A stretch of DNA of 64,000 bases from Chondrosia reniformis (taxonomy: Eukaryota > Porifera > Demospongiae > Chondrillida > Chondrillidae), in NCBI GenBank assembly GCA_947172415.1, contig OX359194.1:2976001-3040000 (forward strand), read 5' to 3'. The notes below the pieces were generated by a model that saw only the letters and a program-made list of their open reading frames with translations, searched no databases and was not told where the DNA came from. The position numbers were made by a program, and so were the translations under genes. Of this stretch, positions 13,266-45,400 are shown piece after piece (the first letter of the stretch is position 1; each line of letters begins with the position of its first letter).

Positions 13266-13640
13266 CGTTGCTGGGGCAACCACCTGTGTATATATTTCGT
13301 AACCGGGGTATAACAGGATTTAAGAAGCTATATACTGCCATCAGATTCTTAAATCCTGTTATACTCCTGCCCAAATATGGTAAACTATGACGTTTCTACT
13401 TGTAGGGTGGACAATTCTCCTTACATTTAGGAGAGTTGGAGTAGTCAGGGCAAGAGCATTCTATAAAGTCGTCAGCGTTTAAGCCAAACTAACCAGACGC
13501 CAGATGAGCCATCCTGAAAGTCCCGCCAAAATAACGATAAGAAGCAAAGGAGTATATATCACTTATTATGCGCCCTCGTGACTCGTACGTATAAAACCCA
13601 TATACACCTCAGCGCCGTGGTATAACTAATACATAATTCA
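13266..13640 (-). repeat. dispersed repeat X, copy 2
   Basis: Same organisation as 8986-9340: the 'taacaggatttaagaagc' inverted pair, then on the minus strand a small ORF related to MAQLASGCFC.. but interrupted by stops. It is followed downstream by an inverted copy of repeat R and then repeat Y. Confidence 0.6.
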
Positions 13641-14502: not shown

Positions 14503-17500
14503 TCACGTTTCTTCTGACTCTAGATACTCATCATCCTCTTCCAAACCTGCCACCTCTCTTTGACTACCTTCTGGTAAAACAGGTTGCACTTTAGAAAGAT
14601 CATCCATAGACTATGATATATATAGAAATACAAAGTAATATGTAGCAGTAAGTATTAGGCTTGTATGCAGTATAATTCTGATACAATTATATTATATTAT
14701 CAGGCATACATTAAATATTACACATGTACGCATGTACGTGTGGTAGAAATATTTGATGTCAATTACATGTTTTGATAATATCAGAGAGTACGGTAGTACT
14801 CTCTAAGTAGGGATCGCGGAAAAAATATGGCCGCCCTATTCAATGTATTATTAATTAACACCTAATAAATCAACAGCGATAGGTTTTTTGCTTGTATTCG
14901 AGTGTTTGCAGTCGTTTTTGCATGCTTTTCTAAACGCCAAAACATGTTTCGATGCTCTACAACCTTCGCAAAATGGTTAAACCAAAATAGGCCAAATTCT
15001 GAAATTCTTCATTTTTTCTTCTTTTTTATTTTTCAAATGAGCTAGCGCTAACATGCGAACTTACGCAGGTACATACAAGTACTAAATCGTCATGAATGTT
15101 TCAGAACTAGGGAATAGGCTACCGTAGATTTCAACACACCCTATGCGAAGCGTGTTACTTTTTAAGGTGCCAAATTTAGGGCCTCTTCGAACGCCATGTT
15201 TTAATTAAGTTTCAAATTCTCTATATATACCGTATATGTCCGAATAGAGGCCCCGGCCTCTATAAAATTACCTAAATTTTAGTCTGATACCTAGCCTTGC
15301 TTCCAATATAAAATCAGTTTCTCTTCACGCGCGGGGAGGAGCATGGCCGTCAGTCCAGATTCGCAAGCGCCTACTTTTGTCGCGAAAGAGAGCGTTGTTA
15401 GAGGCCACCATGTGTACAAGATAGTCTGGACCCAGTCATCGGAGAGCTACTGCCGCTGAAAGCTGAAGACAACAATGAACACGATGATCACGCTGTCGCA
15501 GTGGTGAAGGGCGGTGAAGTTATTGGTCACGCGGTCTATCTCCAGGATAGCCTGGTTCTTCCTGCAGCGCGGTGGCAACATCACTTGTCGTATTACAGGA
15601 AGAAGGAAGGTGGGAGTTGGACTGAAAGTGCCTTGTGTTTATATATACCTTTTGTGGCTCAATCAAAGCACTTGATAAACTAAGTAGGCTATTCTGTGAG
15701 GACACTCATCCACATGCACAGACTCATTCCTGTCCACAGTAACTCACTGATAGTTCATTGAAGTCAGTAATTTAATTTCATGATACGAAACCATTCCGAA
15801 AATCATAAGTGGACGAATGCTCAAGCATGTATGCAATGATGCCATATTATGCTACCACATGCAGGAGCACATAATTAAGATAATTAAGACTACATACATA
15901 ATGGAATAGTATACAAGCTAAGTCATCTATTGTTAATATATATGTAGTACTGTTCAAGCATAGTTAAGTGCACTTGCTGCAAAGCCATTTCTTACATGTA
16001 GCTGCAGGCGAGGTTTCACAAGCACCATGGAAGCGTTCTTTGCAGCTTGAACATGCTAGCATCGTTTCCCCTGGTTGCTCAGGCATTCTGCATAAACAGT
16101 AGATGGGGACTGCTTGCATTGCTCTGATTTTGCCTGCATTGCACATGTGCACTTCAGTGTATGGAAAAATCTCCATTTTTCCACTGATGAGGCATCTCCT
16201 GAGGTGTGCTCGCATTTTGTGCTGGCTAAAGACATAGCACTCTGGGTGCTTCCCCTGAGCCAAGGCAGTGGCAAAAGCAATGGCATAGACCCCACAATCA
16301 CTCGCACCAGACTGCACTGGCACGTCCATGAATTTCAGGGTGATCTCTGCCTCCTTTGTAGACAGAATGCCGGCAATCTGGGATAGCAGTGCCGTACCAG
16401 CTGATGAGTACAGGCTATCGTAGATACTGACAGTTGGGTGTACTGTACCAATTGTTGATACAGTGACCCAGTGGCCAATTCCTGTATAGAGGATTTGGAC
16501 AAACTCTCCTGCCTTGACGTCAAAGTTCATTGTCAGCCCAGATGTCACTGACTGAAACCCTGAGATTACATATGCCCTCTGAAGCAGCTTTTGAGCTGCA
16601 TCCATGATGGAATCTGTCAGCCATCCCAAGGGGCTAAGACACTCTTGATCTACCTTGAGAAGACCAAGCTCTGGGATCCACCTCTCCGCTGGTTTGTGCA
16701 CTTGTGTCTTTTCTGCATCGATTGGGTTACCTTTGTTGATGTCCTTGGCCGCCATTCTCTGCCTCTGCACTCTCATCAGTTTCTTTGCAGCCTGGTTACC
16801 ATGCTTTCTCTTCTTTGGAAGAGGCAATTTCCCAACATCAGCATCATTATCTGCCTTCTCTTCCTGATGGTCTTCACCTCTGCCTTCCTGATGGTCTTCA
16901 CCTCTGCCTTCCTGATGGTCATCCTTCTTGCCCTCCTGTTGGTAATCCATCCTGTCCTCTTGACAGTCACGTTCACTGTCCTTAAGATGTTCCTCTTCCT
17001 CAACATCTCCTTCTTCCTCATCTCCTTCCTGATCATCATCTTCCTCATCATCATCTTCCTCATCATCTCCTTCCTCCTCATAATGATCATCTTTATCAAT
17101 GCAAGCTTCGTTGTTGTCAACTTCATCACTGTCCTCATCACTTGCAAACGGATCCTGAGTTAGGCTCTTAGTACTGCCACTAGCATGAAGCTTCTGCGTC
17201 TCTTCTTCAAGTCTGCTTTTGCCTGTGGCACAAGGCTGTCCTGCTTTGAAACAGTGAATACAGTTGTCATCACTGCCATCTGTGGAGGTGGTGATGGCAC
17301 AAGTAATGAAAGAATCTTTCACCATTTGAGTAGGAACAGCTTCCCAGCTGGACTTCACCCACTGGCATAGCAAGGCGCGAGATGGGTGTTTCAGATTTCC
17401 TCCTTGTGTGTACTGATGGTCAGCTGGGTCAGCATGCCAGGAGTCGTAGAAGCTTCGCAGGTTGCTTTTGAAGCATGCATTCCACACAACGTCTGCAACC

Positions 17501-20500
17501 TGGATGAACTTGGTGCATCCTCCTGGAACAATTGCTGTGTGGAGACGTAGGCGCACTGTTTCTGCCCCGACTGCTGCACTGGTGTGGCAACGGTATGCAT
17601 CCCACACAAGAAGTCGTTTGTTGAAAGAGACGGCCCCAACAATACTGGACAAATAGTCAATGGTGAGTGTGTCATTCATCCATCCATTGGAGCTAAATCG
17701 TACCACAATGCCAGGGATTTGTTCTAGTTCCTTTCTGAGTCTTGTACCTTTCCCCTTGAACACAACAAAGGGCTTCATCTTCATCCCATTAGCACGTGCT
17801 GTGAGAACGACTGTAAAATGGTTCTTCTCATGTCCTGTTGATTTTAGTGGCACGGAACGTTCACCACGCAGTGCAACTGTGGTGTCTGAGGGCATATCCA
17901 TCCAGCATGCTGTCTCATCCATGGTGAAGATACTGTCCTGTGGATAGCTGTGATGAATCTGGAGAGCTCGAAGTCGTATGATGAAGCTCACCAGTTTTGG
18001 AATGCAGTCATCAGGTGTTGTCTGGCTCACTGTTGTCTTCCGTCAAAGAGATAAACCCTTGCGCTTCATAAAACGACGTAGCCAACCTGTAGATAGATCA
18101 TTGATAATCTTATTTCAACTGGGAGACCAATAGAGTTAGCTATTGTACATTCCATGTACCCAAACAATGTTAATACTGCACAAATTGATACTATTTTAAA
18201 GTAGCCAGGCACTGTAGCTAGCTATATAGGCAGTTCAGTTGCATGTTTAGGCAGTTGTATTGCCCTAGTGTAGCATTCAGGCTAACCTGTACTGGCATGG
18301 AAGTCCTTAGCACTGGACAACGATCTGGCCTGCTGCTGAATCAACTTGCGAGACACACGAAGGTTGCGACCACGCAATGCCACTATCCAGCTGAACAAAG
18401 CATCCTCCAAATCGACATCTAGCGCCTTTCTCCCTGCTCCACCCTGCCGCTTTCGCGAGGACGTTCCCTTCTTCTTCAAACTAGCCAATACCTCCTTCTG
18501 TTTATACCACTCGCGAATTCTCTTGCTGTCCACGCCCATCTCCCTCGCAGCCGCTTCCTTGCTCTTCTTCTCTGCGCACTCAACGGCTTTCAATTTGAAG
18601 GAGACATCGTACGACTTCCTCTTAGACGTAGACGTCGACATCGTTCGCTTGCAGCAAGAATCTCACGCGTAGCGGCTGTCGCACCTCACAGTTGCGCACA
18701 CGGAGCACAAACCGTGTCGATCTATATAGGCCTTGCGTAACGATCCGGCGAACCTGGCCTCTATTCGAGACCCGGCCTCTATTAAAGAATTGGCCTCGGC
18801 ACCGCCGGCCTCTATTCAAGTTCCAGCCTCTATTTGAGCCCGGTATCTATACGGACATATACGGTAAATAAGTAACTTGAGTTAGAAATATTTCTGGTAC
18901 TGCCGCCCCCCGCGATCGAATTACTTAGTCGCTTTGCAGGGCCTATATATAGTCGTATTCTTAACGATTATGGACCCTTTAATATCCTTAACTGAATGTT
19001 AAAGAACGGTAGAAGACTTATTTGACAAATTTGGGACCTTTTCGGACGCCTTTTTTTTAATTTAGAGCTCTCGATTATATTGTCTATTCTGGTACTTTAT
19101 TTCGAATTTTCGCCAAAAAAACTTTGTTAATAAGAAAAAAGGAGCAATACAAGTTAAATAAAAACATTCAAAAACGAAGTTAAAAGTAGGGATGGCACTA
19201 TAACAGTGATTGGCACATCTAGAAAAAGTAATGAAACGAGAAAGTGATCATATGGTAAGGCTAACATTGCAGAAGTGGCATACTGAAACTTAACTATACA
19301 CATCACTTCTATGTTTGGGCGCATCGATCACTACTTCTAGTATATCCATGATGCACCCAAACATAGAAGTGATGTGTATAGTTAAGTTTCAGTATGCCAC
19401 ATCTGCAATGTTAGCCTTACCATATGATCACTTTCTTGTTTCGTTACTTTTTCTAGATGTGCCAATCACTGTTATAGTGCCATCCCTACTATTAACTTCA
19501 TTTTATATCAATGAACCAAGGATTTCAAAAGGTCAATAAAAAGCACTTTTTAAGTCTAGTTAGTAGTGGCTTGTTTCATCATAACAAAACTAATATACAT
19601 GTAGAATATCCGGTGCACATTTGCATGAGGCTAGCTTGCTGATCAGTCTGAGTGTACATTTGAGGCTAGCTTGCTGATCAGTCTGAGTGCACATTTGCAT
19701 GAGGCTAGCTTGCTGATCAGTCTGAGTGTACATTTGAGGCTAGCTTGCTGATCAGTCTGAGTGCACATTTGCATGAGGCTAGCTTGCTGATCAGTCTGGG
19801 TGCACATTTGAGGCTAGCTTGCTGATCAGTCTGAGTGTACATTTGAGGCTAGCTTGCTGATCAGTCTGAGTGCACATTTGCATGAGGCTAGCTTGCTGAT
19901 CAGTCTGGGTGCACATTTGAGGCTAGCTTGCTGATCAGTCTGAGTGCACATTTGAGGCTAGCTTGTTGATCAGTCTGAGTGCACATTTGAGGCTACCTTG
20001 TTGATCAGTCTGAGTGCACATTTGAGGCTACCTTGCTGATCAGTCTGAGTGCACATTTGAGGCTAGCTTGCTGATCAGTCTGAGGCATGCAATCTACCAG
20101 TGTATAATGCAGATATACCTACTCATACCTCCAACTCTCTCATTATCTCATCCATAATATCCGTTGAATTCTCCTTATAAGCAACTGCAGCCTTGATAGC
20201 ATCCTTGAATACCTACATGTACATACATACGTACATACATATTAGACAGTATTAAGTATTATAATAATATACAGATCCATAGAGTCAGAATGAATACCTC
20301 GAAAAACTGTTCATCTATAATGATAATCATCTAGACTGGATGTGCATGGTGCTGCCAGATTATTGAGAATTATATATAAATCACAAATACGTACATATAT
20401 AAAAAGCTCTCTCCAGGTTTAGTTCCAAAATAGGCTTTTTTAAAAGAATAGGCACAACATGTAGGAAAAAGGTGTATTAGATGTTTCATGTACGTATATA

Positions 20501-23500
20501 GTACATGTGTCAGTAGATATGAGTAAGAATCTGTAAAAGTAAGAAAATTGCAAATATTTGATGCTTATAATGGCTGCAATGTATACAGTGGATTCCATTT
20601 AATTGCATAATCCGCTTATTTACATAAAATTATCTAGAACTGATTCATTTTATATATTAAACTGTACTTATTACATTGCTTAATCGAATAAAAGTTAATC
20701 GATTAATTTGGTTATTACCATAAAAATTAGCCTTTACTATACAAACGTATGTGCATAGCATCAATTGCTGGGCAAAGGAACAATTATTATGCATAAACGT
20801 GTCCTATAGCGTGAAACATATAGTAAGATGGCTGCTCACTTTTTTGAGAAGCAAATGTATTGACAGTAACAGCTTAATTGTTTAGGTTGCCGCCAATACA
20901 ATGACAAACTTTATACTGGTTAAACATAGAAATGAGGTGCTTTCAACATATAAAAATATTCACTCCTAGAGGATTCACACACAACTATGTACAGTACCAA
21001 TGTTTTAAATTCTTAGTAAAGTCTCTGTGAATGAACCTTTAAAATATGTATAAATCTAGCTAAATCAGAACAACGATAATTTTCAGCAGTTCAGTTATAA
21101 GTATTAGCAGATGGACCCGCCGCCCTTCGGGCAAGTCCTCCCACTGACGGGCCATACAATACCTACTCGATGCCAGTGCATGCACTGTACCATGGCTACT
21201 TCAATGCCAGCACACCATACAATGGCTATTTGAATGTCAGCTGAATTCGAACGTCTGTTAAACCAATGTGAAAAAAACAGTAATACTAGGTATATAAAAA
21301 CTCCATGACTGGATATATTTGCAGTTTCAAAGAAAACAGCAGTGGAAGTGGAGCAGCAGATCAGTACATGATCAGTTCTGTGCAATCTTCAGGTGTCCCT
21401 CCATAATCTTGCAGCGTTTCGTCTCGTTTGGTGCAAAGGCGCGGAAGGAGATACGTATAGGGCACTAATGTTTTTACCCTTAGATCCATTATATATAGAT
21501 AAATCACTTACAGGTAATTACAAATTTTTGTGAGACTTCATTGCTATCATACTACGTAGCTCTTAATCAATACATCTTCGATATACATATATGAGACATA
21601 TTCAATCTCACCTTAACTACATTAGTACCATCTGATGCAGAGACAAAGTGAAATGGAAGATGATTCTTTCGCGCAAAATTAAAGCTCTTTTGGGTCACTT
21701 TATAGTCAACTACAAAGATATTAGGAATAAAAACAAATGCCAGACTGCTTAAATATATATCACATTGCAAAACAATCACCCATTTGGCCAAAGTAATATC
21801 TTTACACATTACATGTAAATTACTGTATCTATCGCACCATATTCTGAAACTAAGGTTATCATGCATATGAAGCTAAGGAAACTTAAAGAAAACTAATAAC
21901 TTAGGGCAAACCTAAAACAAGTGTGTTGACTTAACGTCACTCAAGCACTTACAATAATCATTATTACCATAAAATCAGTACATATGTATATATTGATAAC
22001 TAAAGGTTAAAGTTCCGTTTAAATACGACTAAATGTAGCTTAAGGAAAAAAAAGTACGTACTTTATGTATGCACATGATCCATTTACGGTTACTACATAT
22101 CCACTATAAACCTATGGAGCCTTGGATGAAAACCATAAAATAACGTATGGACCTAAATTTTTGTGGGACTAAACTTTTGCAGTTTTCGGTTTTTCACATT
22201 TTTTGCGTTTTTATTTTCGCAGATGCTTCCTCATAATATTCCAACTTTCTCTAACTGGTCGACACAATTACGTAGTCCCTTTAGTGGTGATTCCTGGTCC
22301 CAAAAATGTTGCCCCAACTCACAGTAGCCATATTGCGAACTATGACATCATTGCGTTCTAAAATGGACGTACCTGGTAATTTCACTTTCACTTTTAAAGT
22401 TCTATAGTCTAAATTTTTGTGGGACTAAACTTTCGCGGATGGCTGCCAATCTGCAAAAACCGCGAAAGTTTAGTCCCACGAATATTTAGGTCCATATGGT
22501 ATTGAATTGACTGCAAAAACAAATTTAAGGAAATCATTAAAATCCACTCAAAATCTGACCATTGTTCTAACAACATAGCAAATATATATGTACATATATG
22601 ATGCATGCTCACCGTCAATCTTATTAGCAACTAGCATACAGGGTATCTCTGGTCTGTGGTACCGGAGCTCCTTGTACCAGTTGGAAAGGTTCTTATAGGT
22701 TATCTTCCTAGTCACGTCAAACACAAGTATGCAAGCATGTGCCTGGTGGTAGTAGGTAGCATGCATGCTATTGAAACGTTCCTGTCCAGCTGTATCCCAG
22801 AAATCTACGAAATAAATAAAAAGATGAAGTTAGGACAATTAATAAAATATTACATTTGAGGACTTATAAAATCATCAATTCAAGAGCTGTACAGCATATA
22901 CGTACGTAAGTGCAAGGAAGCATGCAAACAGGAACTACATATAGCTTTGCTTTCTCATTTGAGAAAACAGACTTTTATATTTCAATTTCCATATAGTGTT
23001 TCTGTCACATTATAATATAGTTATCTGCACATGCAATTACATAAAATTTTAAAACTTATGTATACTTAAAAGTGGCACTTACTGTAGCACCTTAACCAGA
23101 CAATAGCACCTTACCTTATCAGAGAAAATAGCTAATTCAACTGCCATGGAGAAGAGGTTGATAAAAGACTTGATTACATGAATCATCTAACACACCATTT
23201 TTCAACATGCTACATCTACTTTAGAGTAAAGGACTAATCCTAGTGTGACCTTTGGAATAGGGTAGTTCTTCTCCACTGGGCCAGACAGCTGTTTCTGGGA
23301 ATTCCACCCTTCATCAGTGCCTATGGGTCTTCTTCTTGATCTTAAATTTGTGAGTCCTTGGCTCACTATACAAAATCTAGGGGCCTTATATACACAATTT
23401 TGGTAACAAAGGTTGAATTAGGTGTAGGTGCATGTATATGACATGCATGGACTGTAAGGTGGCCTACTTGATATTATATGTGAAACATATCGTTATGACT

Positions 23501-26500: not shown

Positions 26501-27123
26501 GAATTAATGGTCTGTACAGTATACAGAGGTCAAATGGCCCCCTAAAGCTAGTAGATTACATACTACCATACTCACATTCACAAAGCATTAAAGAGCATAT
26601 ACAATGTACTGATTACAAACAACTAAATGTACATAGCTTCCCCTATCCTACATGTTTTATTAAAGAATGTACAGCATTACAAATTGGCATTTTTGTGGTA
26701 TGTAATACAAAACTCTAAGAAAGTTCAACTATTAATAGAACTGATTGATGACTCTCACTTAACAAAACTTCCTTTTGAACATACAAAAACATGTACATCA
26801 GGCTAGTATTGACCTGCTGTAACTTGATGGAGGATACTAGTCATCCATCAGAAACCGCTCTACGAGCCTAGAAAAATGGCGGGGAAAGTTTTCAGAAAAC
26901 AGTAAAATATGAAACATTAAGGATACTAGTTGATGCAGTAGCCGACCATTGCAGCTGAATTAGCAATACAATGAACATTTATAACTCTTCATTATAGGGC
27001 ATACTTTGATTTTCCAACGGCACTATCTCCTAAACATATTACTTTGACTTTGCACACTTCGTCTTTCCCTTGTTCCTTTAGCTTAGTCTTTGAATCTCCT
27101 TCTCTACTGCTTCCTTCTGCCAT
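14503..27123 (-). CDS. RABL2: Rab-like protein 2 (RABL2), complete, seven exons
   Basis: The exons are 27123-27005, 26867-26838, 26229-26150, 22804-22613, 21709-21612, 20212-20129 and 14610-14503. Together they give 711 nt (236 residues plus stop), all with GT..AG sites and matching phases. The protein has the P-loop GDSAVGKS (residues 32-39), an effector region PQQLSTYALT, DFWDTAGQERF (about 77-87), an NKID box (about 137-140), VTQKSFNFARKN and VSASDGTNVVK, then an acidic tail without a prenylation cysteine. These are hallmarks of RABL2 (vertebrate proteins are about 229 residues). RABL2 is a small GTPase that, with CEP19, triggers entry of intraflagellar-transport complexes into cilia. Intron 6 hosts a same-strand DNA transposon, a minisatellite and a palindromic element. 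The promoter region is shared divergently with the gene at 27,288. Confidence 0.95.
15342..15682 (+). pseudogene. HIRAN-domain ORF of the transposon, frameshifted
   Basis: The plus-strand frame from ATG 15,342 reads MAVSPDSQAPTF then VVRGHHVYKIVW. After a one-base shift near 15,430 it continues GELLPLKAEDNNEHDDHAVA and VKGGEVIGH. After a second shift near 15,530 it reads SRIAWFFLQRGGNITCRITG. The GHHVYK-x-x-W opening, the HD-x-x-AVAV-x-x and GEVIGH boxes and the C-terminal ITGRR match the HIRAN fold, a DNA-end-binding domain known from HLTF/Rad5-type helicases. It faces the transposase gene tail to tail. Two indels make this copy non-functional as read. I infer that it is a second gene of the element. 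Confidence 0.65.
15964..18641 (-). CDS. pogo-like transposase fused to Ulp1-type protease and PHD finger (one premature stop)
   Basis: Exon 1 is 18641-18287 and exon 2 is 18086-15964 (joined in phase, 825 codons). The N-terminus has two helix-turn-helix parts (YDVSFKLKAVE, EMGVDSKRIREW; then FSWIVALRGRNLRVSRK, GWLRRFMKRKG), as in pogo/CENP-B proteins. A DDE core follows: TMDET (D about 175), LLVWDAYRCH (D about 281), IQVADVVW (D about 317). After a long acidic low-complexity region comes a C48-type protease with GHWV, IYDSL and VQSGASDCGVYA (His, Asp, Gln, Cys about 716). The chain ends with a PHD-type zinc finger (CLCRMPE..CSSCKERFHGAC..CSKC). In this copy codon 134 is TGA at 18,043-18,045, where the context suggests CGA (a CpG transition). 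Confidence 0.88.
19178..19500. mobile_element. palindromic MITE-like element
   Basis: Two near-perfect inverted arms of about 150 bp (19,178-19,330 and about 19,345-19,500) share 'gtagggatggcactataaca' and 'ggcatactgaaacttaacta'. There is no coding capacity. A full diverged relative lies at about 39,590-39,960, and half-copies occur at about 35,925-36,020 and 36,965-37,125. It lies in RABL2 intron 6. Confidence 0.75.
19614..20084 (+). repeat. minisatellite, about 33-40 bp unit, about 13 copies
   Basis: Tandem units are built on GGCTAGCTTGCTGATCAGTC followed by TGAGTG(T/C)ACATTTG with or without GCATGA. Two length classes alternate irregularly at first and then become uniform, suggesting unequal exchange. 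Each unit contains two 6-bp palindromes (GCTAGC and TGATCA). The array ends 45 bp before RABL2 exon 6. Confidence 0.9.
22144..22497. mobile_element. MITE-like element with 30-bp inverted ends
   Basis: The ends read ATGGACCTAAATTTTTGTGG on the left and the complementary CACGAATATTTAGGTCCAT on the right. A second internal copy of the GTGGGACTAAACTTTCGCGG block forms a strong hairpin with the right end. It is non-coding and lies in RABL2 intron 4. Confidence 0.7.
23276..23320 (-). repeat. hammerhead-like motif copy
   Basis: The minus strand reads CTGATGA, A, a GGG/CCC hairpin, A, GAAA, CAGCTGTC, almost identical to 8470-8512. It is a variant of the hammerhead core with mismatched bases closing stem II and weak stem I pairing. 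It lies in RABL2 intron 3. Confidence 0.6.
24838..24877 (+). repeat. hammerhead-like motif, degenerate
   Basis: CTGAAGA, a hairpin-forming stretch, then GAAACAGCTGACC. The cleavage-site GTC is replaced, so activity is unlikely. Confidence 0.45.
26010..26076 (+). repeat. G-rich 9-bp tandem repeat (GGGAGAGGT)n
   Basis: About seven copies of a 9-bp unit with regularly spaced GGG runs, compatible with a G-quadruplex on the plus strand. On the transcribed RABL2 pre-mRNA it appears as a C-rich tract about 75 nt downstream of the exon 3 donor. Confidence 0.85.
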
Positions 27124-27287: not shown

Positions 27288-29492
27288 ATGACCGAAGAAT
27301 CAAGAAGTGAAATTATTCTGAAATTATTTCTTCTAGCGATGAAGGCGAAAAGGAAAAAGAAGTTTTTAAAACGCGAAAGATTTGAAAAAGATCCAAAATG
27401 GAATGACCCAGAAATTAATTCCCCCCACGAAGACTCCTGTAAGGTCAGTCTGAACCCACCAGCCTCAGGGGATGGCTGTGACCTCGTGCGTTCTGTGGAA
27501 TCGGAAGGGAGCGTGGAGCTGGGTAACTGGGAAATGAAAAGGAACATTTTGGTTGGTGCCATCAACGCCGAAATTAATCACAAGCTGAAACGTCAGTCGA
27601 TAAGATCCACAAATGATCATGATTCTAACTATTGCTTACGCAGTCGAAGTGAGGAAGTTATTACGAATTCCTTCGAGCCGAGTACTCCAGATCCCCTATG
27701 TGATTCTCTTACTGTAAAAGGGTTATCAAGCGACCCAAACACCTTGCAGTTACTTATACTAGCTTCATCTGAGGAGTTAAGTGATGCAAGCAAAGACAAT
27801 GGGATGTCCCAGACTACTAAAAATAGCAGAGAAGAAGCTAGCAAATCATGCCTTAAATGTGGAAACAGATATAAGGAAAATAAAACTAGCCCAGTTCATC
27901 CGACCTCTCCTCAGAATGCCTCAGATAGTGACTTGTGTACTCCAACTAAATCTCCGGATCTGGATCCAAATCCAGAGTCTTCACTTACAAGGAGACCTGA
28001 GGTGCTGTCTTGGACTTCCTTAACTCCAGCCTGTTCTACCTGCAAGTCCGAAGTAGACTCCTATTTAACACCTACTGATAAAATGTTGGCCACATCTGAT
28101 GATCATTTAAGCTTACTATTACAGGTAAAACGAAAATTACAAGAGGAAGTTGGAGACGATGAAAGCTTTAGAAAGCTAATGAATGGAGGGGAAGTATCAA
28201 TTGCAGATTTATTTGCATTTCGAATGCACCAGGAGGCTTTGTTGAAAGCTAATGATCACAGTCCTGCTGTAAATCAAGTTTTTCAATTTTTAGCACAGAA
28301 TAGAGGTTTGGTAGAAGTCTATGGATCATTAAGGAATGCTCTCCTTCCACTAATGACAACTGTAAACAAGGTAATATTCATCTGCTTATGTTTTACTGAA
28401 TTTCCCCACTTGAGCTTTTAGCTTAGCATCTGTATACTGTAGATCCTGTTTCTAGAGTACCTGTGGTGTTTTAGATTACTACTGTATAGATTGCATTTAA
28501 TATGTATTCTAATTAGTTCATCATGCATTATTTTTCATATTATGTATTTCACTATATGGATTAAATGCAAAATGTGTGTATATGTGTTAATTGATGTTCT
28601 GATAAGCAATAACTTCATGGTTTGTAATTTCTGGTATACGTATGTACGGTATGTAGAAAGTCATAATTTCAATATGTAACCTATATACACCCCCTTTGCT
28701 TTTGATTTATATACTTAAAAAGTACATATATAGACATGTGATACTATATGTATATACACAGGCTATTGACTTTTCGTTTTTGGTGGGTCAAGTCTTTTTT
28801 TGGTTGAATGACCAATTGAGTGATCATCACATTGACCAGGTTGAAGAGTTTTCGTTTAAACTTCTGAAGGAGTATTTTGCCACTAGTAAACAAAGTCAGA
28901 ATCCAGATGCTGTAAGTCTAAAGAAACTTTGCTATATATACATGCCAAGTTGGAGTTGCATGTTGAGTATCCCATACTAATTAAGTTTCCCTATTTAAAA
29001 TATATAACGTGTATATATGTATTACATTATCTATACATATATATATGGGATTGTAACTGTTACATCTTTATGTGGGTATATGCATATAGTTGTACCCACA
29101 AATTGAATCACCTCAGGAATTGCACCAATGTTGACTTGTCAGACTAAATATGCATGTATATTACATTGTGCTATATATAAAGATCACAGGACAAAAAAGA
29201 AATCATGTACAGTATATAGTGTGTCCTTCTTTCTTTATATATATGCTGCATCTTTGTTGCTTTTTTCTCCTTGCTATATATATACTCTAAACGTGTATGT
29301 GTGTAAAGCAGTAACATCTATACATACATACGTATTTAAGTTGGTGCATTTTTATGCATATAGGCAGAGTATAATGACGATAGTGTTGACATTGGTCATA
29401 TGATTGATTTTTGTGGAGAAAATGAACCAGACTCAATCATGGAAAATGTAGCTAACAGACTACATCGTTGTTATTCCACATCTGTAGACTAA
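27288..29492 (+). CDS. unknown protein, paralogue A of a tandem pair, three exons
   Basis: The exons are 27288-28370, 28762-28911 and 29364-29492, phase 0 throughout, giving 453 residues ending in TAA. The N-terminus (IILKLFLLAMKAKRKKK) matches paralogue B ([15 protein letters not shown]). The middle is Ser/Thr/Asp-rich and probably disordered. The conserved C-terminal module spans LMNGGEVSIADLFAFRMHQE through NALLPLMTTVNK, DFSFLVGQ and FSFKLLKEY. I do not recognise the family. The charged N-terminal helix and helical C-terminal module suggest a cytosolic or nuclear protein with an interaction domain, but no enzymatic motif is visible. The start ATG fits the position where similarity to B begins. 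Confidence 0.8.
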
Positions 29493-30517
29493 GCAGATAA
29501 TGATTTATATAGGTGAGACACAACACAAGATGTACTCTTGCGATGTCTATATATGCTCCCAAGTTTTATTGTCATCCCTACTAAGAAGACTATGTAACAA
29601 AGGAGCCTACGTATGTACTGAAGCTACTTTAAACAATAGAGACTAATTATACTGATGAGCTATATACTGATAAGTAACATGTGGTAACAAATACTTCATA
29701 TAGTTTGTTGCATGCATGATCCATCTTACGTGTAGAAGGTTCAAAGAATCTTATAAGAGACAATTTGTTTTAGTCACTAAAAAGTAAAAAGCGTAGAATG
29801 ATTGACTTGATAATCTCTCTGAGCAACTCTGCATACACTAAATACCCAAATTTGTCAAAAGATGGACCATAAATCTAAGAATAATTTTCAGTTAGAGGTG
29901 CTGCCGCATATACCAGAATATTACCTTCTATACTTGTCCAAGTCACCATCCTCTTTGTTTGACTTCACTTAGATCTTTCTGGATCTCTGGACCTCTTTGG
30001 ATTTGACAGTTGATCATTACTTTAGACTTCTTTTGTAATAATATGATTGTATATTTCATTTTGAAGTTGAATCCTTTTTAATATATGGCCATGTTGCAAT
30101 ATGCATGTACATATACGACAGTTTCAAAGCTGATATATCGAATTTCTCTAAATTAGTAGGCCTGTGCCCATGAATGGTTTATATACCATGCATGCACAGT
30201 GTATTATGTTGATAATGCATGGCTATCTGAGATGCACTTGCTTATTAAGTCCCACTGTTCACGCTGACTATATTACATCCTGGCCAGGTAATCTGATCAG
30301 CAACATGGGCCCTATATTAACTATATTAATATAGGTATGGCTGACTGGATTAGGAAAATTTCATTGTATATTGTGTGTCAGGAAAAAAGACAAGAATGGG
30401 CTCCTAGATCTGAACTATATCTGAAATAGTTGGAATTAGGTGGGGGTATATATAGATTTCTATTAGAACCTGTATTCTATTAAATATATCATAATAAATG
30501 ATAAATAAATATATAAG
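29493..30517. other. intergenic, no gene recognised
   Basis: AT-rich spacer between the paralogue A stop and the inverted-repeat/hammerhead region upstream of paralogue B. Confidence 0.4.
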
Positions 30518-30624
30518 GGGAACTTTAATAAGATCTAAAGCTGACGTTATCATTGAACTCTGGATATTACCCCAGATGATGATACCATGCTTTAAGGTGA
30601 ACTCTTTAGATCATAAAGTTCCCC
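30518..30624. repeat. inverted repeat (hairpin-forming MITE-like)
   Basis: The arms GGGGAACTTTAATAAGATCT.. and ..AGATCATAAAGTTCCCC are complementary with a roughly 60-nt centre. A related short arm pair occurs near 24,540-24,595. Confidence 0.6.
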
Positions 30625-30751
30625 AATTTTTTTATTAATGGTTAGCCATACTTTTGGTTGTACCTGGGGGGCCTTTATCTGCTGCTATGTAAACCACAAG
30701 ATTGTGCTTCTGGGAATATTTATTAGCAGACTAGCCCCTCAAACTCCCATC

Positions 30752-30800
30752 GTATGCCATACTGATGAGTCCTAATAAGGATGAAACAGCTGTCTATGGC
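30752..30800 (+). ncRNA. type I hammerhead self-cleaving ribozyme
   Basis: All core elements are present in order. The stem I 5' strand GCCATA (30,756-30,761) is followed by CTGATGA (30,762-30,768). Stem II is GTCCT/AGGAT closed by AATA (30,769-30,782), followed by GAAA (30,783-30,786). A very short stem III AC(AGCT)GT ends in the cleavage triplet GTC (cut after 30,794). The stem I 3' strand TATGGC (30,795-30,800) is perfectly complementary to GCCATA. Short stem III is the style known from Penelope-like elements and animal retrozymes. It lies on the sense strand about 190 nt upstream of the next gene's start. Activity is inferred from structure only. Confidence 0.9.
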
Positions 30801-30924
30801 TCAACCATGTTTTTGAGTGGCTAGGGGGAGACTCTGGTTCCCATCAAGCAAAATTTCGTTCCACCCATTGCTCATTGCACTCCTCAGGAGACATAAGTGG
30901 GCAGGGGTAATATCCAGAGTTCAA

Positions 30925-30932
30925 TGACGTCA
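30925..30932. promoter_or_regulatory. CRE-like palindrome TGACGTCA upstream of paralogue B
   Basis: A perfect cAMP-response-element palindrome 48 bp before the chosen start codon. It lies in an inverted repeat (30,897-30,933) whose partner at 30,543-30,580 carries a mutated version, so it may have arrived with the repeat. Confidence 0.4.
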
Positions 30933-30979
30933 CACGGATTAGCATTAATACGGAACGCAGTGCCTTGTCATCAATATTG

Positions 30980-33900
30980 ATGTTGAAAATGGCAGAGTTG
31001 AAACCGTTATTTAGGAGTAAAACCACTACGAATATAGAGCTTGAAAATGACTCTAAAGTGTCAAGAGTAATCAGTAACGAAGAAAAAAATGAAGCTATCT
31101 TGAAACTATTTCTGTTAGGTGCTAGAGCAAACAAAAAGGCTATCGACAGGGAAGGCCAACGCAGAGAAAGTAAGGAAGAACCTCGGCGTAATCCAAGCGA
31201 AGAGGAACATGAAACTAAAAGGGTTCCTTTGGAAAGACTGAATACAGAAGAAATACGTGACGTACAGAGAGAATGCGATAAGATCATAGCTGTGAATAAG
31301 GAGATTCGGATGAAAGTTTCTGCCTCTTATGACCCAGAAGGTGAAGAGGCAAAGATAAAGGCGTTGGAAGATTTGGAAAGACGAGAAGTCATAAAAAAGC
31401 GCTTAGAACTCACAAAGAAATTGAGTATTGCAGCAATAAACTCCGAGATTAGGCGAATATCGAAAGATCGAAGGAGATCTAAGCTAGGAAGCAATTTTCC
31501 CAAGTTCATCTCTTCGGTAAGCGAAGAAGAGGATTCGACACAGAGTTTGCCTCCAGTTTTTCTCTCTGAACAGTATAAGAGTGTGTCTGAAAACTGTCTG
31601 CAGGCTCCGGTCCCATTAACGAAGCTGAATGAAGGCAAGCGTACAAAAGGTAGAGAGTTAGCAGCGGATGAAGAAGGCCGCCTGGAGGTTGTGACTAAGA
31701 ATGACAAGCGAAAGGATCGCCATTCCTATCCTGGGGTCGCAAAGCATAAAATTTTTTGCGATGAAGACATTCTTCTTTCACCAAAGGATGGTTTGGTCAC
31801 AGCTGATTTATGTGACTCGTCTTCTGTATCAGATGGAAGAGGAAGCAACTATGAAGATTCTACTAATGATCAGGATGGCAATGACGCACTAGACAGTGGA
31901 AGAAGACCAGGCAGCGGGGAGAGACCAGGCAGCGGGGAGAGACCAGGCAGCGGGGAGAGACCAGGCAGCGGGGAGAGGCCAGGCAGCGGGGAGAGGCCAG
32001 GCAGCGGGGAGAGGCCAGGCAGCGGGGAGAGGCCAGGCAGCGGGGAGAGGCCAGGCAGCGGGGAGAGGTCATGCAGCGGGGAGAGGCCAGGCAGCCGGGA
32101 GAGGCCAGGCAGCGGGAAGAGGTCAGGCAGCGGGGAGAGGTCAGGGAGCGGGGAGAGGCCAGGCAGCGGGGAGAGGCAAGGCAGCGGGGAGAGGTCAGGC
32201 AGCCGGGAGAGGCCAGGCAGCTGGGAGAGGTCAGGTAGTGAACAGAGCATACACAGTGGAGGAAGGGATGATAGCGAAAGCCAGGCTAGTGAAGGTAAGC
32301 CTGAAACAATGGCCAATTTGGGTGTGGAATCCACTGATTTTGGGTATGCTACACAATATGAGCCAGTTAATCAAGAATCAAAGAGTAATGTACCAATGGA
32401 TAAGTCATCAAATCCAGTAGTATCTGATATGAGTACCCAAGCTACCAGTCCAATTTCATCTTCTCATAGTCCTGAATTGATAAGTGATGGAATAAATTTA
32501 CGGTCAAGCTCAGCAATCTCTTGGATGCAGAAGGATGCTGAGCCCTTAATGCTTGGTAGATCAAAAAAGCCAGTAGAGCACAGTGCTTCTGTTACTAGTT
32601 CTGACTCTGGATACGCTTCAGAGAATCCAATCTCAGACAACAACAGAAGAGCAGTCCCAGAAGCAATAGCCGAAGGACCAGAAGATTGTAACTCCCCAAG
32701 GCAAGGTAAACGGTTGCAGCAAGCTGGAATAACTCTCAAAATGACAAAGCCCAGTAATGCTAATCTGGATAAAGAAGTAGAGAACAGAAGAAGAAAAGAT
32801 TGGAAACCAAAAGATGATAATCCATTTCAATTTGGTGATGAGGAACCAGACACAGGGAGCAGAGAGGCTGCATTTGAATCAAAACCATCAGCCAATCAGA
32901 GAGTGGAGCTATTGGAAGAGACAGTGGTTACCAGGGAGGAGATTCTCTCCTATTTGTCACCGGAGGACCAGGATATGGCCACTACAGAAGAGGAAAGACA
33001 GCACCTCTATCACCTTAAAAGAAAATTTGAGATACAGTTTCGTGATTGCAAGGCTTTTAATGACCTTATGAATGGTCGAGAGATTTCAATCATCGATATG
33101 ATTGCTTTGCGAATGCATCAAGAATCTGCTTTGCTATCTGCCAATTATAATGATGATATCCGCAGAGTGCTAGACCAGTTGTCAGAGAAAAGCTCTAGTG
33201 ATAGTTACAACTCTTTTAAGGGAGCATTCAAACCTCTAATGAAAACAGTTAAAAGAGTAAGAATGTTATTGTGTATGCATTATGATTGTATGTACCTAGT
33301 TGAAGGCCGTGGAGTGTGCTGTGAAGAAGACAAATATTATATAGAAGCTGGGCTCGAATAGAAGCCGGGCTTGAATTGAGGCCGGGTCAAAAATAACTGA
33401 AACGAAATACAAGCCAGTGCTTCTATTCGGACAAATTTGTTACGTACATACATACATAAATATGTAGCTTGATTTAATTGTGCTATTTGGGAGTAGTGAC
33501 CCCACAAAGTGATGCATTTTTTCTTTTGTGTTTTGTTCCTGTATTATCTTGATCCAAATATCACATTTTAGTCAGTATTAGCATTGAATTATGTGTCGAA
33601 TCCCCTTTTCCTTTTGTTTAGGGAGTTGAGTTTTCTGTACTAGTTGGTATGTTGGGTGCTCAGATGATTGAAATGGATCCACAAAATGACGAGAAGATCC
33701 AAAAGTACTCATTTCAACTTTTGAAAGAATACACTGTAGACAGTGTCTCCTCATTAGTTGGTCAACCGGCTGCAGTGAGTTGCATACATACATACATGTG
33801 TAAAATATTTAATCCTTAACACAGCAAGTGATACCTGGGTTACCTGATTTTGTTGTTACACAGAAAATTGTCATATAAGCCGGATGGGTCTCAACTGTTG

Positions 33901-35549: not shown

Positions 35550-36490
35550 TGTAAATAACATGTACATACTCTTTTCTCTATTGTTGCTCATATTTTGTAT
35601 AATATTGTACTATACGTAGCTCGGTAATGTCACTGACTGACAAATTTAGAATTATATACTTAAGCAAGAAAAAGAAAATGTGCTTGATCTCCAGATGACC
35701 CCCACAGCATCACTGCAAACATTATATACATAATTTATGTATATAATGTTTGCAGTGATTTTCGTATAGACCGAAAATCGATAATTTTGGCTACACTCAT
35801 ATAGACTCTAGTAGGCCTTTCTGAGAGTACATAGTGTGCACAATCAGGAATTTCTATCTCACGCCATCTTTGCGCTAGAGACGGTTTATGTTTATTCGCA
35901 GGTGGCCGAAAGTCAAAATAGTGCTACAATCCTATTTCAGCTTGGTGCACCCAAACACAGAAGTGTGTGGTTTAGTTACTTAAATTTCAGTATATATGCA
36001 ACTTCTGTACTTACTTGTGTATTATTGCATCACTAAGGTACATAGGGCAGTTTGGCCCTAGTGCTGGTGAGCTGCAGATAACCACAAGCTAAGCCCACGC
36101 GTACACTTATCTAAACATTTCCATATAGCAGACTTTCAGTCTGTTATCCTAGAACTTAAACCATGTAAAATTTGTCTGGCTATGGCTAGACTAGGTAGCT
36201 AGGATGCGACAGGTGAACCCCTTTGCACTAAGGAAGAGCACTATTTCGGTTACTTACCAAGTAAAGGTTTATGACTACCAGAGTATACGCGTATCACAAT
36301 TTCTAAAATGTCCCCATTGTGCTAAATTTAGCATTAATCATCTTTGCACGTGTTATATGTTGAAGTTAGATTATCTGAATAAGAAACTGTTTTTCTTCTT
36401 CGTCGAATTTGATTGGGTCAAGGTTGATAGATTGAAAGAATTTAGAGTCTAAGTACGGCAGTGGCTTACCCCCAGCTAGGCTGAACAAAA
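35550..36490. other. intergenic region with half of a palindromic MITE
   Basis: There is no gene. It holds a perfect 25-bp-arm palindrome (35,709-35,759) and a half-copy of the 19.2-kb palindromic element at about 35,925-36,020. The remainder gives only spurious short ORFs. Confidence 0.5.
35709..35759. repeat. perfect palindrome, 25-bp arms, 1-nt spacer
   Basis: ATCACTGCAAACATTATATA.. pairs exactly with ..TATATAATGTTTGCAGTGAT. It would extrude as a cruciform and is possibly a recent fold-back event. Confidence 0.9.
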
Positions 36491-39400: not shown

Positions 39401-42400
39401 CATTATCTACAATACACTGTTCATTCCTGAATAAGAGGATACAAATTTAAAAAGTGAAGTAAATCTTATGTGTTTATTTTCTTTGTTACTGCTATTTCCT
39501 AAGTCACATGCACTGAAGCAAATCTGAGTCTGGGTTGCCCAAGTGCCATGGCAATGGGGTTATAGCCTAGAGGCCTATACTATTTGTGCTGAATGCCATA
39601 TTGGGTATTTATGACGCCTCACTTCTGGACTAGTTATCAAGTGTAGTACATATAATGTATGATGCCTCCTGTCGGTGTAGATCACATCGGGAAAAAGTAG
39701 CAAAACAAGACAGTGATTATGTGATAAGGCTAACCATACAGAAGTGGCATATATCCTAAAAAGTTTATGAATTAACCATATACACATAACTTTTGCATTT
39801 AGGCACACCATCCCTACTTCAGCTATCCATGGTGCACCCAAACACAGAAATGATATGTATGCTTTCAGTATGCCACTACTGTATAAATAGCCTTTTCACA
39901 CGATCACAATCTTGTTTCATTGCTTTTTTCCAGATGTACTAGCCACTGCTGCAGCTTGCCCCACTTTCATGCTGACTTTATTCCTTTCTACCAGACCAGA
40001 CTGCAGTTTCTTGGAATTCCACCCTTCATCAGTGAACTTTGGATTTATTGTTGTTTGGTCTTTTTTAGTCCTTTATAGTCCTTTGCATGTCTTACCTTAG
40101 ACTATGCCATATCTATGGTTCTGATTACTCTGTACATGATTATGCAAGAACATTTAAAAAGATGTTTGAAGATTTGAGCAAAGATGTGTCATTTTTAGAG
40201 TATATTAAGAAATTCATTGAACGGTAAGGTATATTTTATCATGTGTATTGCTTTAAAATTGAATATTTAATGTATGAGCTATTCTTAAATTTGTATTTTA
40301 GTGGTGACTTTGATATAATGGGTTATGAAGGAAACTTGCTCACATCAGCTTTTATGGAGTTGTCAGACGCTGCTTCACTGTTTGTTAAGTCTTCCAATTT
40401 GAAAATATTTCATGAAAATATTGGAAAGAGAATAATGTGGGGTAAAACCAATTTCAGCTTCTATATATTCCGTTACCCTACATACATATAAGTATATTCA
40501 CTTAAGTACATATGTTGTAATATGGGTTAATACTAGAACATTTAACTCTAATACTATTTCAAATATGTACCATGTTTTTCATAATATGTACGCATATACG
40601 TATATACCTTATGCTGCGTGCAAAGTTTTTTACAGGATAAACATTATATTATACATATCTTATGTATGTAGGTTATTTGCATATGGCATTTGCCCTTCAA
40701 AATATAACTGAATCCGATTGTTTTGTTGGATACTGGAGGAGTTTTGTCAGTGATGTTGAAGTATGCAAACAATCCATAGCTCTAACTATATGATAGCTTT
40801 TGTTGTACTTACGTATATATACTTAATAATAATTAATTATTTGTATGCTCATAGTATATGTACAGTACATAGACGCTAAAATTCTCTATAGATTTTTGCT
40901 CCTAACAAATTACAGCAGGAGGATTTACAGAATGCCATTAAATTTGGCAAATTCTTCAGTGACTGTATACCAGATCTAGAGGAGTTTCAGTTTTCTGGTG
41001 AAAATCTTGCACATTTACTGATTGCACGGGGAAAAATCACCCACTTATTAGACTTGAGGTGTGCTTATACAACCATGCAATGAATAGGAAAATTGAATTT
41101 GCATTGTATCCTTTTTTGTAGGAAAGTTTTAATCTCTTTTCAAGATGTACTATTTCAAAAGCACAAGAACCTTTATAACTTTTTAGCAAGTGCATTTAAC
41201 GACCTCACTACAAATTTCAGTTCAGGAAAAGAGGGTTTACTAAAGCTTTCACCAAGTGGTGATCTTTCTTCTATTTTACAACAGGTAAGTATACTTGAAA
41301 AGCCTTAATTTATATTAAACATGTACAGTACATAAACATATTGTGCACACCCCATATTTTTGGTTTAAATATAATCAGCACATAGACTGCAGTAAGGTAA
41401 TCCATATAGATAATTCATATGGCTCCAAGAAAGGACCTAGAAACAGAATTAATGGGCATATTATCATAGTGTTCAGGGTATATAACTCATTTTAAATTAG
41501 GGGATTATTTATTTACGTAGGCCTCCGTTTGTTAGAAATGGAGGACAATGTCTGCATATAAAAGACCATAGGACTATAGAAAACCAAGTTATACTGAAAC
41601 CATGTAATTTTTTAATTGGTGAGATAACTGTGAAACCAACATATATCATAATAAATGTGTATGACAAACGTATGGCGAAGTTTTGCTTAATTAACAATTG
41701 TAAAATAATCAAGATATAATGAAGAATTCAAGGTTATGATTGTGCAATCTGGTGATGTAAAGTGATGTTTTCTATTGCATCACCAACAACTGCGTATGTC
41801 TCTGCGTACACACCGCCTCTTTGCAGAAGAAGGATCATCCTTTCAAGAATATGACAAGTCGATGCTCTCCTACGAGGAGCTACTGAATAAGCGAGTACGT
41901 TGTAGTGAAGGTTAGATAAAGCATATTTGTATACATTTCTGTAAGTTTGAGGTAGAATTGTTCCTATATAGACGCAAAAGAAATTCGTTTAGGCAACCTA
42001 AAACTTCCTTCTTCTCTTCCAATGTTTTCTGTTATATATATGTTTACTTTTCCACGTTTGCACGTACGTATGGAATGTACTTGGGTATGTAGGGATGCAT
42101 TTGAATAAACATTGTGTGCATGCAAATGTCTTGGTACATTTTGTTAGCAAAAGTTTTTTTTATTGGAAAAACATCACTCATTATTCAAATCTGTACATTG
42201 AGTGAAAAAAAGGGTGAGGGGGGGGTGTGAAATCTCGGACACAGACAACAAGAAAAATCCATATGATATAGAGGTTCATTATCTGGCAAGAGTGTTGTGT
42301 GATAATAATATATAGTAATTGATATTTAAAGGTTTGGATATATAAAAGTTCAAATTGATTGGAACCATTGTTCATAATTTCTTGCTAAGTAGATTTTTGT

Positions 42401-45400
42401 GAACAGTTGATCCATATCTCAGATGCTTTGTCGAGGATGGTTCTCCATTGCTGTTTTTGTAATTCAGGGAAAATTCTTTGGAGGGATGGGACACAATCTG
42501 CTGAGTAATGGCCCAGGGCTCCTATTTCAATTGTGACATAATCAATATGAAAGTTCTTCCTTTTGAGATCTCCTATGAATTGTTGGTAATTCAACTTGGA
42601 GGTTTTCCGCTTCCTTGCAGCCTCCATACCTTCCTTCGAGTCAGTGCAGATAGTTGGCTCTATCATTCTGATAGTGTTCTCCTTCAGAATCACAAGGTCA
42701 GGTCTGGCCGTGGTGACAATAATCCTTTCGGGAAGTGTAGTGGGAGGATTTTCAGCTGCTCTAAAATGATCCAGATCAGCAAAAATTCTTCCATCTATGA
42801 TGGTACCTTGAAGGGATTGTGTTAGGTGGAGAAGAATACAGTCATGCCTCAAGGTGTAGCGACCCTCTTTCAGGGCGGTGGGGCAACCATTTAGAATATG
42901 TCTAACCGTGGCTTCTTGAGATTGACACAGGGGACAGTTAGCTTGAAGTCTGATCTTCCAACGAACCAGATTCAAGGGGGTTGGTAATGTGTCTGAGCAA
43001 GCTCTCAATATAAAAGAAAGTTGTCCAGCTGGGAGGCCATTAATGATTCTGCTCCACACACAATTTTCTTCTTCAAGTTCTATAGAGTCTAGGGCTTTCT
43101 TTTAGACTTGGAGTGATTGCAATTTGTCCGACCATTTTTTCCTCTCATCTTCTGATAATATTAATTTTGCCTCTTTCGCTTGTTGTTTGGATGTTCTGTT
43201 GGTTGGTAGATCAAGATAATGTTTTGTTTTGCTTGAGATTTGTTGTCGTTTCAAGAAGGCTTCGTCATTGATGATGGCTTTTAGTTCAATGGTTGTTTCA
43301 TCTGTTGAAGATTTTAGGTTTGATAAATAGCTAATCTTGGCTTTCATGTACATTTCCGATAAAGTAGGGATACTGGTTGGTAATGCAGGGTGGTGAATGA
43401 GTGCTCTAGAGGCATTTTGAGGAAGTCTTAGCCATTTTTTAATTGCCTTGGCAATCATTCCTTCTAGTTTGGTCAGTGTTGTTGCAGTAACAGGGTTACG
43501 GCAAGGTGGAAGTGAATGGCTGGCATAAGATAGTGTTTCAGTATCCAGACTTTCATTTCGCCTCTGATAGGTCTTTTCCCTATTCTTCTAACTGCTGTTT
43601 TTAGCTTATCCTTGAGTTGGATTCCTGATTCTTTCCTGGTGTGCAAATTGTTTATTGTCAGAATCTTCCCCAGGAATTTGATTGGTGCCTCAGCTATGGA
43701 TTTAGTGTGGCCTTGTGACAGTTTAAAGGTCTTACTCCTGCTGGGTTTACCTTTTGATAAGGTTATTGAGACACATTTGGATGGCTTCAAGGTTAAATTA
43801 AGGCTATTTGCTGCCTTTTCTATGTGTGTCAGGGCTTCTTGGTGGTCTTCCTCATTGGAGTTAATAATTGTGAGGTCATCAGCATATGCTTTGCCTTTGT
43901 GCTCAGATGTTGTAGTCCATAGTTGTTTTTTTGGGGTCGGTTTGCATAATACAGGAGGTTGGTCGTCCAAAGGAATGAACTTTTTTGCATTCTTCCTTGC
44001 ATAGGTCCATTGGTTTTTGATTAGGGAAAGTGTTTCAGAGACTTGTGATGAATAGTTCAGTACAGCATTTCCATTAGGCAAATAGTGACTAATGGTGGCT
44101 CTGTACCATCCAGAAGGTTCCTCGCTATCTTGTTCATCCCATAGTACATAAATGGTGGAGTCAGGAGATGGTAAATCTTTGGAGTTTGGGACGGGAATCT
44201 GGAGTGAGAAACCAGAGTAATGCCATTGTTCCATCAATCTAGTGATGGGAGCAAAGGCTAATAGAAAAATGGTGGAATATAGTGTATCTCCTTGGAACAC
44301 GCCCTTTCCCACCTTCAGCTGCGGTGTTTGCCAGGACTTGGTTTGGATGTAAACTGAGAGTTTGTTATAGCAGTTTCTGATATATTGGATGGTTTCCCTT
44401 GGGATACTGACATGTTGGAGCATATCTAGAATATAGTTATGGGAAACTGAGCCAAAAGCATTTTTTAGATCTAACATTGTAATGGAAACTGACTTCTTGT
44501 TCTCTTTGGCCTGGTCTAGGATGGCATTGATGGTATTAATATGTTCCATGATTCCGTTGATACCATGGAGAAAACCTTTTTGAACAGTGGTATTAATGAT
44601 GTCATTTTTCCTAAGAAATTGCTCTAGGCATTGTGCAAGAATTTTGTGAAACAGCTTGCCTATGGTGGGTGCTAGGACTATTGGACTATTGGAGAGTCAA
44701 AGAGATTCCATCGGTGATACATACATACATTCAATTTTCGATATAATATATGTATTCTCAACAGAGTTTGGCAGGCGATCCGTGACTGGCGTCTTTAATA
44801 ATGTCTACCTTTCTCCATCCCAACCCTCGCACTGAGCACGATAAGCGTAACATCACAATCTCCCTGGCTACATGGAATGTCCGAGGGCTGAAGGCATCTG
44901 ACAAACGACAACAGCTGGGCAGGGACTGCACTAAATATCACCTCGACTTAACATGCCTCCAAGAGACGAAAGTAGCAGCGAATGAAGATCTTGAGCTGGC
45001 GTCGGGACACAAATTGGTGCTCATACAACAGCAAACTGCCAAGTACAGAGGCCTAGGCTTCATAATTGCCCCCCGACTGAAGCCATTTGTCCGCCGATGG
45101 TGGTACGTGAGTGACCGTGTAGCTGTCTTGGACCTAGACATCCCCTGTTGGAAAGGTAACTTTTGTCAGTGCCGAATTGTGAACGCATATGAACCAACAT
45201 CTCAGAGAGTCAAAGAGAATTCATCGGTGAGTGAGCAGTTCTATATATGCTGAGCTGAATTCAGCCATTAAAGCCCCAGCTAGTTTTCTTGTTTATGTCT
45301 GTGGTGACTTCAACTCAAAATTGGGTAAGCGCACAGCAGCAGATATAGAAGCAGGATTGGACTCCTGCATGGGAGCACATGGTATGGGGACCCGCAATAA

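Follow-up and report, generated by a model that had tools for sequence, protein, structure and literature searches.

A solitary type I hammerhead motif between two paralogous genes of the sponge Chondrosia reniformis, a likely remnant of a retrozyme-type retroelement

The vast majority of hammerhead ribozymes associated with repeats in eukaryotic genomes are of type I (excerpts of PMC3088659). Most minimal type I motifs, usually lacking helix III, are dispersed in the non-coding DNA of animal genomes (excerpts of PMC7761336), and a single coral is reported to carry more than 6000 type I motifs (excerpts of PMC7229834). Among the closest described systems are the animal non-LTR retrozymes (Cervera and de la Pena 2020, PMC7229834; here and below in its excerpted text), whose self-paired RNAs of ~170-400 nt have a G+C content under 45-50% and carry a type I hammerhead with a short or weak helix III. 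Their defining arrangement is tandem, with the hammerhead in repeats of ~150-450 bp, so that each ribozyme would cut a multimeric transcript into unit lengths. In the model presented in the excerpts of PMC7229834, unit RNAs would be closed into circles by an RNA ligase of the host, for which a tRNA ligase is the likeliest candidate; the circles are thought to be reverse-transcribed and re-inserted into the genome.

The satellite hammerheads of axolotl and newt (HHR_Amex1; excerpts of PMC7229834) have reportedly conserved contacts between loop 1 and loop 2 and a very weak helix III, whose palindromic tetraloop suits dimer formation and in which it is ambiguous whether A15.1-U16.1 counts as a pair. 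The axolotl retrozyme ribozyme reached 6% cleavage in one hour as a monomer and cleaved far better in dimeric form (same excerpts); a palindromic helix III also occurs in several other hammerheads, including that of Aedes (excerpts of PMC3088659). Penelope-like elements and Terminons harbor minimal type I hammerheads, often alone and dispersed (excerpts of PMC6155905 and PMC7761336), and the mammalian intronic hammerheads of RECK and C10orf118 are solitary ribozymes near host genes (excerpts of PMC3088659). Among the papers listed by a literature search, no title or opening part of an abstract reports a sponge hammerhead, which is no proof of absence.

Here we characterize a type I hammerhead motif from Chondrosia reniformis, its surrounding repeats and its neighboring genes, in a window comprising the whole 64,000-nucleotide stretch of contig OX359194.1 that was analyzed.

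The hammerhead motif and its predicted folding

A complete type I hammerhead motif can be read directly on the plus strand at 30756-30800, as GCCATA-CTGATGA-GTCCT-AATA-AGGAT-GAAA-C-AGCT-G-TC-TATGGC (Table 1). Direct reading, Rfam alignment and a structural scan all locate the core and three stems that a first-pass annotation had claimed, with the six pairs of stem I, five of stem II and two of stem III that it had described; its start at 30752 was four bases too early, and its cleavage position, predicted from the GTC triplet, agrees with ours. Three helices are present, with helix I open-ended, around a core that conforms to that of RF00163 (CUGANGA, GAAA, A15.1-U16.1, H17). The core-side pair of stem II is G.U here as opposed to G-C in the Rfam consensus, and stem III consists of A15.1-U16.1 and one C-G pair closed by an AGCU loop.

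Table 1. Positions within the window of the hammerhead motif, the surrounding repeats and the signals and reading frame near them
Feature	Position	Strand	Description	Basis
ATTAAA 30479, AATAAA 30493, AATAAA 30504	30479-30509	+	putative poly(A) signals	sequence
Imperfect fold-back GGGGAACTTTA...AAAGTTCCCC	30517-30625		overlaps the candidate element	alignment, sequence
Candidate element	30542-30935	+	~0.4 kb; putative ends; rod-like predicted RNA	fold, G+C
Left arm of inverted repeat	30550-30573	+	24 nt, 100% complementary; reaches 30542 with a 3-nt gap	
Stem I, 5' strand	30756-30761	+	GCCATA	sequence, Rfam alignment
Catalytic core	30762-30768	+	CUGAUGA	sequence, Rfam alignment
Stem II	30769-30782	+	five pairs, core-side pair G.U; loop AATA	sequence, Rfam alignment, Vienna fold
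Core GAAA	30783-30786	+	final A is A15.1	sequence, Rfam alignment
Helix III	30786-30793	+	8-nt palindrome ACAGCUGU	Rfam alignment, Vienna fold
GUC triplet	30792-30794	+	predicted cleavage after 30794	sequence
Stem I, 3' strand	30795-30800	+	TATGGC	sequence, Rfam alignment
Right arm of inverted repeat	30904-30927	-	24 nt, 100% complementary; reaches 30932 with a gap	
CRE-type palindrome TGACGTCA	30925-30932	+	putative promoter motif	sequence
ORF B from first in-frame ATG	30980-33361	+	paralogue of ORF A	

The motif aligned with Rfam RF00163 (Hammerhead_1) from end to end (1-45 of 45) without gaps, scoring 32.2 bits, with an E-value of 3.3e-6 for the local 501 bases and of 4.2e-4 for 64 kb, both strands and all 4227 Rfam families. 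The covariance search proposed in the first-pass annotation thus gave a divided answer: the window-wide E-value is significant, and the score falls 1.8 bits short of the gathering score of 34, a threshold set by curators for listing and not an attribute of the molecule itself. For this reason a default curated Rfam search lists only a tRNA. (A tRNA-like sequence at 63506-63580 is called tRNA-SeC(tca) by ARAGORN and scores 44 bits with the Rfam tRNA model.) Other matches below their cut-offs look spurious, among them MIR6140, placed on a fold-back with 84.1 of 140 bits, and Fibrobacter-1, at 24.7 of 77.9 bits with a local E of 0.0065; an independent structural scan was therefore made on both strands, with the core and at least five pairs in stem I, three in stem II and two in stem III as its definition. 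This hammerhead was its single hit in the window. A first-order Markov model of the window, which keeps the dinucleotide make-up, was used to generate 150 random windows, and the scan hit nothing in them. The looser pattern CTGATGA...GAAA has 11 matches, of which the other ten are absent from the scan output, and Rfam yielded no second hammerhead in the 64-kb window down to E 10; HHR_Amex1, by comparison, is represented by ~60,000 motifs tied to tandem repeats (excerpts of PMC7229834). We take the hammerhead motif as real. A dispersed repeat, CTGATGAAGGGTGGAATTCC(C/A)AGAAA, occurs in three near-identical copies (8485-8510, 23292-23317 and 40007-40032 (-)) and is likewise absent from the scan output.

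From A15.1 to U16.1, helix III forms a perfect palindrome of eight nucleotides, the Rfam consensus length; the minimal dispersed type I motifs, by contrast, usually have no helix III. Within one molecule it can form an A-U and a C-G pair around the AGCU tetraloop; between two copies eight pairs are possible, with a Vienna duplex energy of -11.1 kcal/mol. For the single molecule, Vienna gives a lower energy to a competing fold that pairs the CUG of the core with the CAG of helix III (-13.4 versus -7.2 kcal/mol), a result that serves as a caution only, since Vienna ignores tertiary structure. Despite its appearance by eye, extension of stem I into the flanks is no better than in shuffled flanks (109/500 as good), and the 98-nt hairpin at 30733-30830 is ordinary (z -0.99; 31/200 shuffles as good). 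Because both resemble shuffled sequence, a canonical contact between loop I and loop II is at most putative here, in distinction to the conserved loop contacts reported for HHR_Amex1 (excerpts of PMC7229834). Since its helix III is of the dimer type and the window holds no second copy to pair with, the single ribozyme, though complete in its core, is probably weak or idle in place.

The enclosing inverted repeat and other repeats of the window

A perfect 24-nt inverted repeat encloses the ribozyme (Table 1). The candidate element that it suggests spans 394 nt between putative ends, with 43% G+C over 30542-30938, and the RNA of 30510-30960 is predicted to fold as a rod of -147.1 kcal/mol (z -4.85; 0/100 shuffles as good), much of this fold strength stemming from the arms of the inverted repeat. 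The overlapping imperfect fold-back at its left may be a small inverted-repeat element in its own right. Eight clusters in the window are formed by inverted repeats whose exact arms measure at least 18 nt and lie no more than 450 nt apart; merged into six spans, these occupy 2.1% of the window, or 1.5% when the span enclosing the ribozyme is left out, and on this basis an accidental placement of the ribozyme within such a repeat is a ~2% event. Fold-back elements are common in the window, and the presence of the ribozyme inside one could be a coincidence at that level. Probable fold-back elements, seen as inverted repeats whose exact arms are long, lie at 9899-10383, 13308-13364, 19185-19490, 22419-22479 and 35709-35759; in the third of these, 19237-19438 matches Rfam MIR6140 on both strands, below cut-off.

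No direct repeats of at least 9 nt were detected across the ribozyme site, a result that says little because the longest repeat in shuffled sequences averages 8.9 nt. Inspection by eye revealed no shorter target-site duplication at the ends of the arms, and no tandem array covers the ribozyme site in the window. By BLAST, the segment 47647-47707 is similar to the right arm together with its inner bases (E 0.005, 16 identical bases). A gapped local alignment with the same region scored 57, the best of 100 shuffles reaching 61, and the other strand gave a long gapped alignment with an uncontrolled score of 68; with BLAST suggestive and the shuffles unsupportive, a relation of this segment to the right arm appears doubtful. 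Searches of virus and prokaryote collections retrieved the exact ribozyme pattern in none of the viral contigs and none of the genome contigs, and a 21-nt piece of the inverted repeat had no match in the same collections; these results say little because the collections comprise viruses and prokaryotes.

Other mobile elements are evident in the window. A Pogo/Tc5-type transposase occupies 15964-18662 (-), with BrkDBD and HTH_Tnp_Tc5 in one ORF and DDE_1 in the next; the DDE_1 ORF also matches a Ulp1-type C48 peptidase and a PHD-finger just under cut-off (22.2 of 24 bits). LINE-like pieces are arranged head to head at 42385-46818, with zf-RVT and RVT_1 on the minus strand; the plus strand has Exo_endo_phos together with an RVT_1 match below its cut-off. 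We take the reverse-transcriptase pieces accompanied by zf-RVT or Exo_endo_phos at 42-47 kb to be of LINE type. Taken with the split genes, the LINE and pogo/Tc5 pieces point by themselves to a eukaryotic and probably animal genome, and its compactness and G+C might suggest a sponge.

Neighboring genes and the position of the ribozyme between them

The ribozyme lies between two ORFs on its own strand, ORF A (27288-28421) and ORF B (30965-33361 from stop to stop, with first in-frame ATGs at 30980 and 30989). The two ORFs are paralogous, aligning with E 5e-22 and 34% identity across 139 aa. The ribozyme occupies the sense strand upstream of ORF B, as had been annotated, at 179 nt from the first ATG rather than the ~190 nt given previously. 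Within ORF B, an 18-nt tandem array of 18.3 copies (31907-32235) codes for repeated GSGERP. Divergent from ORF A and ~160 nt from it, a stretch of 42 aa (26998-27123, minus strand) has no Pfam match and a weak PDB likeness to Rab GTPases (best E 0.15); it is possibly the start of a Rab-like GTPase, presumably resembling RABL2. PDB searches with three ORFs of the window gave nothing useful.

AATAAA and ATTAAA signals are located ~245-280 nt upstream of the ribozyme, and the palindrome TGACGTCA, which we take to be of CRE type, lies 47 nt before the first ATG of ORF B, its sole other copy in the window being at 16515. Short motifs of these two types, in A+T-rich DNA, constitute weak evidence of poly(A) and promoter use. 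With an E limit of 1, BLAST of 30000-31100 against the window detected nothing upstream of ORF A, so that the two paralogues do not appear to have the ribozyme in common.

The interpretation offered in the first-pass annotation held in one part: type I hammerheads with a short stem III are known from animal retroelements, and Rfam, the scan and the literature agree in placing this motif among them. Its other part, a self-cleaving 5' transcript of gene B, is weak, because the putative CRE-type motif lies downstream of the ribozyme, the AATAAA-type signals lie upstream, and nothing similar precedes paralogue A. The simplest reading of the region is that it may represent spacer DNA and not a leader. 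We accordingly consider it very unlikely that the ribozyme resides in the 5' leader of gene B and cuts the mRNA, lowering or regulating expression. Its orientation and distance from the ATG would suit such a role, and precedents include the hammerhead in a 5'-UTR intron of C10orf118 and another located 13 nt before a halovirus gene (excerpts of PMC3088659); the two flanking types of motif suggest an untranscribed spacer instead, a working ribozyme would strip the cap from each mRNA, and paralogue A has no ribozyme, whereas the hammerheads of RECK and C10orf118 are conserved at their sites across mammals (same excerpts). Still more improbable, in our estimation, is retention of the ribozyme as a spacer device or co-transcriptional cleavage terminator between the tandem genes A and B, by which RNA reading through from gene A past the AATAAA-type cluster would be cut after the GUC triplet, a cut that would promote termination and keep the gene B promoter, at the CRE-type motif, clear.

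Origin of the motif and its significance

The explanation that we favor, with moderate confidence, is that a non-autonomous retroelement of the kind represented by animal retrozymes, itself carrying a hammerhead, left this solitary ribozyme between the two genes, where it is probably weak or idle and probably plays no part in gene B. The ungapped, full-length RF00163 match with its window-wide E-value points to such an origin, and the size, G+C content and strongly self-paired predicted RNA of the candidate element, its unit ends being putative, lie within the ranges of animal non-LTR retrozymes, with which the motif also shares its type and a short, weak helix III (excerpts of PMC7229834). 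Further agreement comes from the palindromic helix III, a feature of the dimer-acting axolotl ribozymes (same excerpts) and of others such as that of Aedes (excerpts of PMC3088659), from the predominance of type I among repeat-associated hammerheads, and from the lack of a similar motif before paralogue A. The motif differs from animal non-LTR retrozymes in occurring as one copy in the window, with no tandem array and no duplication of at least 9 nt, and in its long perfect enclosing inverted repeat. Since the window lacks the tandem arrangement that defines retrozymes, with no hammerhead found there in repeats of ~150-450 bp, we class the locus as a likely solitary remnant and not as a retrozyme; a transcript of this single copy would be cut once at most. 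The perfect 24-nt inverted repeat is not presented as a mark of retrozymes in the literature excerpts consulted, and better fits a fold-back DNA element.

That random sequence merely happened to fit the motif is scarcely credible: the score below the curated cut-off, the spurious-looking matches in the same Rfam searches and the non-hammerhead core fold favored by Vienna, with a helix III pair probability of 0, are set against the E-value across all families, the empty random windows and the fact that Vienna does not model the hammerhead tertiary core. Derivation from a Penelope-like element, as a minimal pseudo-LTR ribozyme whose other parts were lost or never there, is unlikely on present evidence. 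The type I hammerheads of these elements have a much reduced helix III or none, and minimal motifs of this type are mostly dispersed in non-coding DNA (excerpts of PMC6155905 and PMC7761336); as a Penelope ribozyme cleaved only when its protein was there (excerpts of PMC11167929), it would not be surprising for an isolated copy to be weak. The Chondrosia motif departs from those of Penelope-like elements and Terminons in its helix III of Rfam consensus length, and Pfam found no GIY-YIG domain in the 34 of 65 stop-to-stop ORFs (at least 95 aa) that were scanned; the reverse-transcriptase pieces at 42-47 kb accompany zf-RVT or Exo_endo_phos, and no long pair of direct repeats resembling a pseudo-LTR was present at 24-36 kb. 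Slightly less likely again, in our judgment, is that a fold-back DNA element (MITE) with 30542-30573 and 30904-30932 as its boundaries carries the ribozyme as cargo. The fully complementary arms would serve as its putative terminal inverted repeats, a chance fall inside them is the ~2% event calculated above, and the BLAST likeness at 47.6 kb is suggestive; that likeness did not exceed shuffled sequence in gapped alignment, no target-site duplication was recognized among repeats of at least 9 nt or, by eye, among shorter ones at the arm ends, and the left arm sits within the other fold-back at 30517-30625 as well.

A solitary retrozyme-type remnant, as we prefer to read it, adds one well-formed type I hammerhead motif whose helix III is of the dimer type and which an unusual inverted repeat encloses. 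This perfect repeat, and the placement of the ribozyme between AATAAA-type signals and a CRE-type motif, are unusual features that we regard as leads. Should the element turn out to include the inverted repeat, hammerheads would be linked to fold-back DNA elements; if the ribozyme is conserved between genes A and B, it would point to host use of a retroelement ribozyme.
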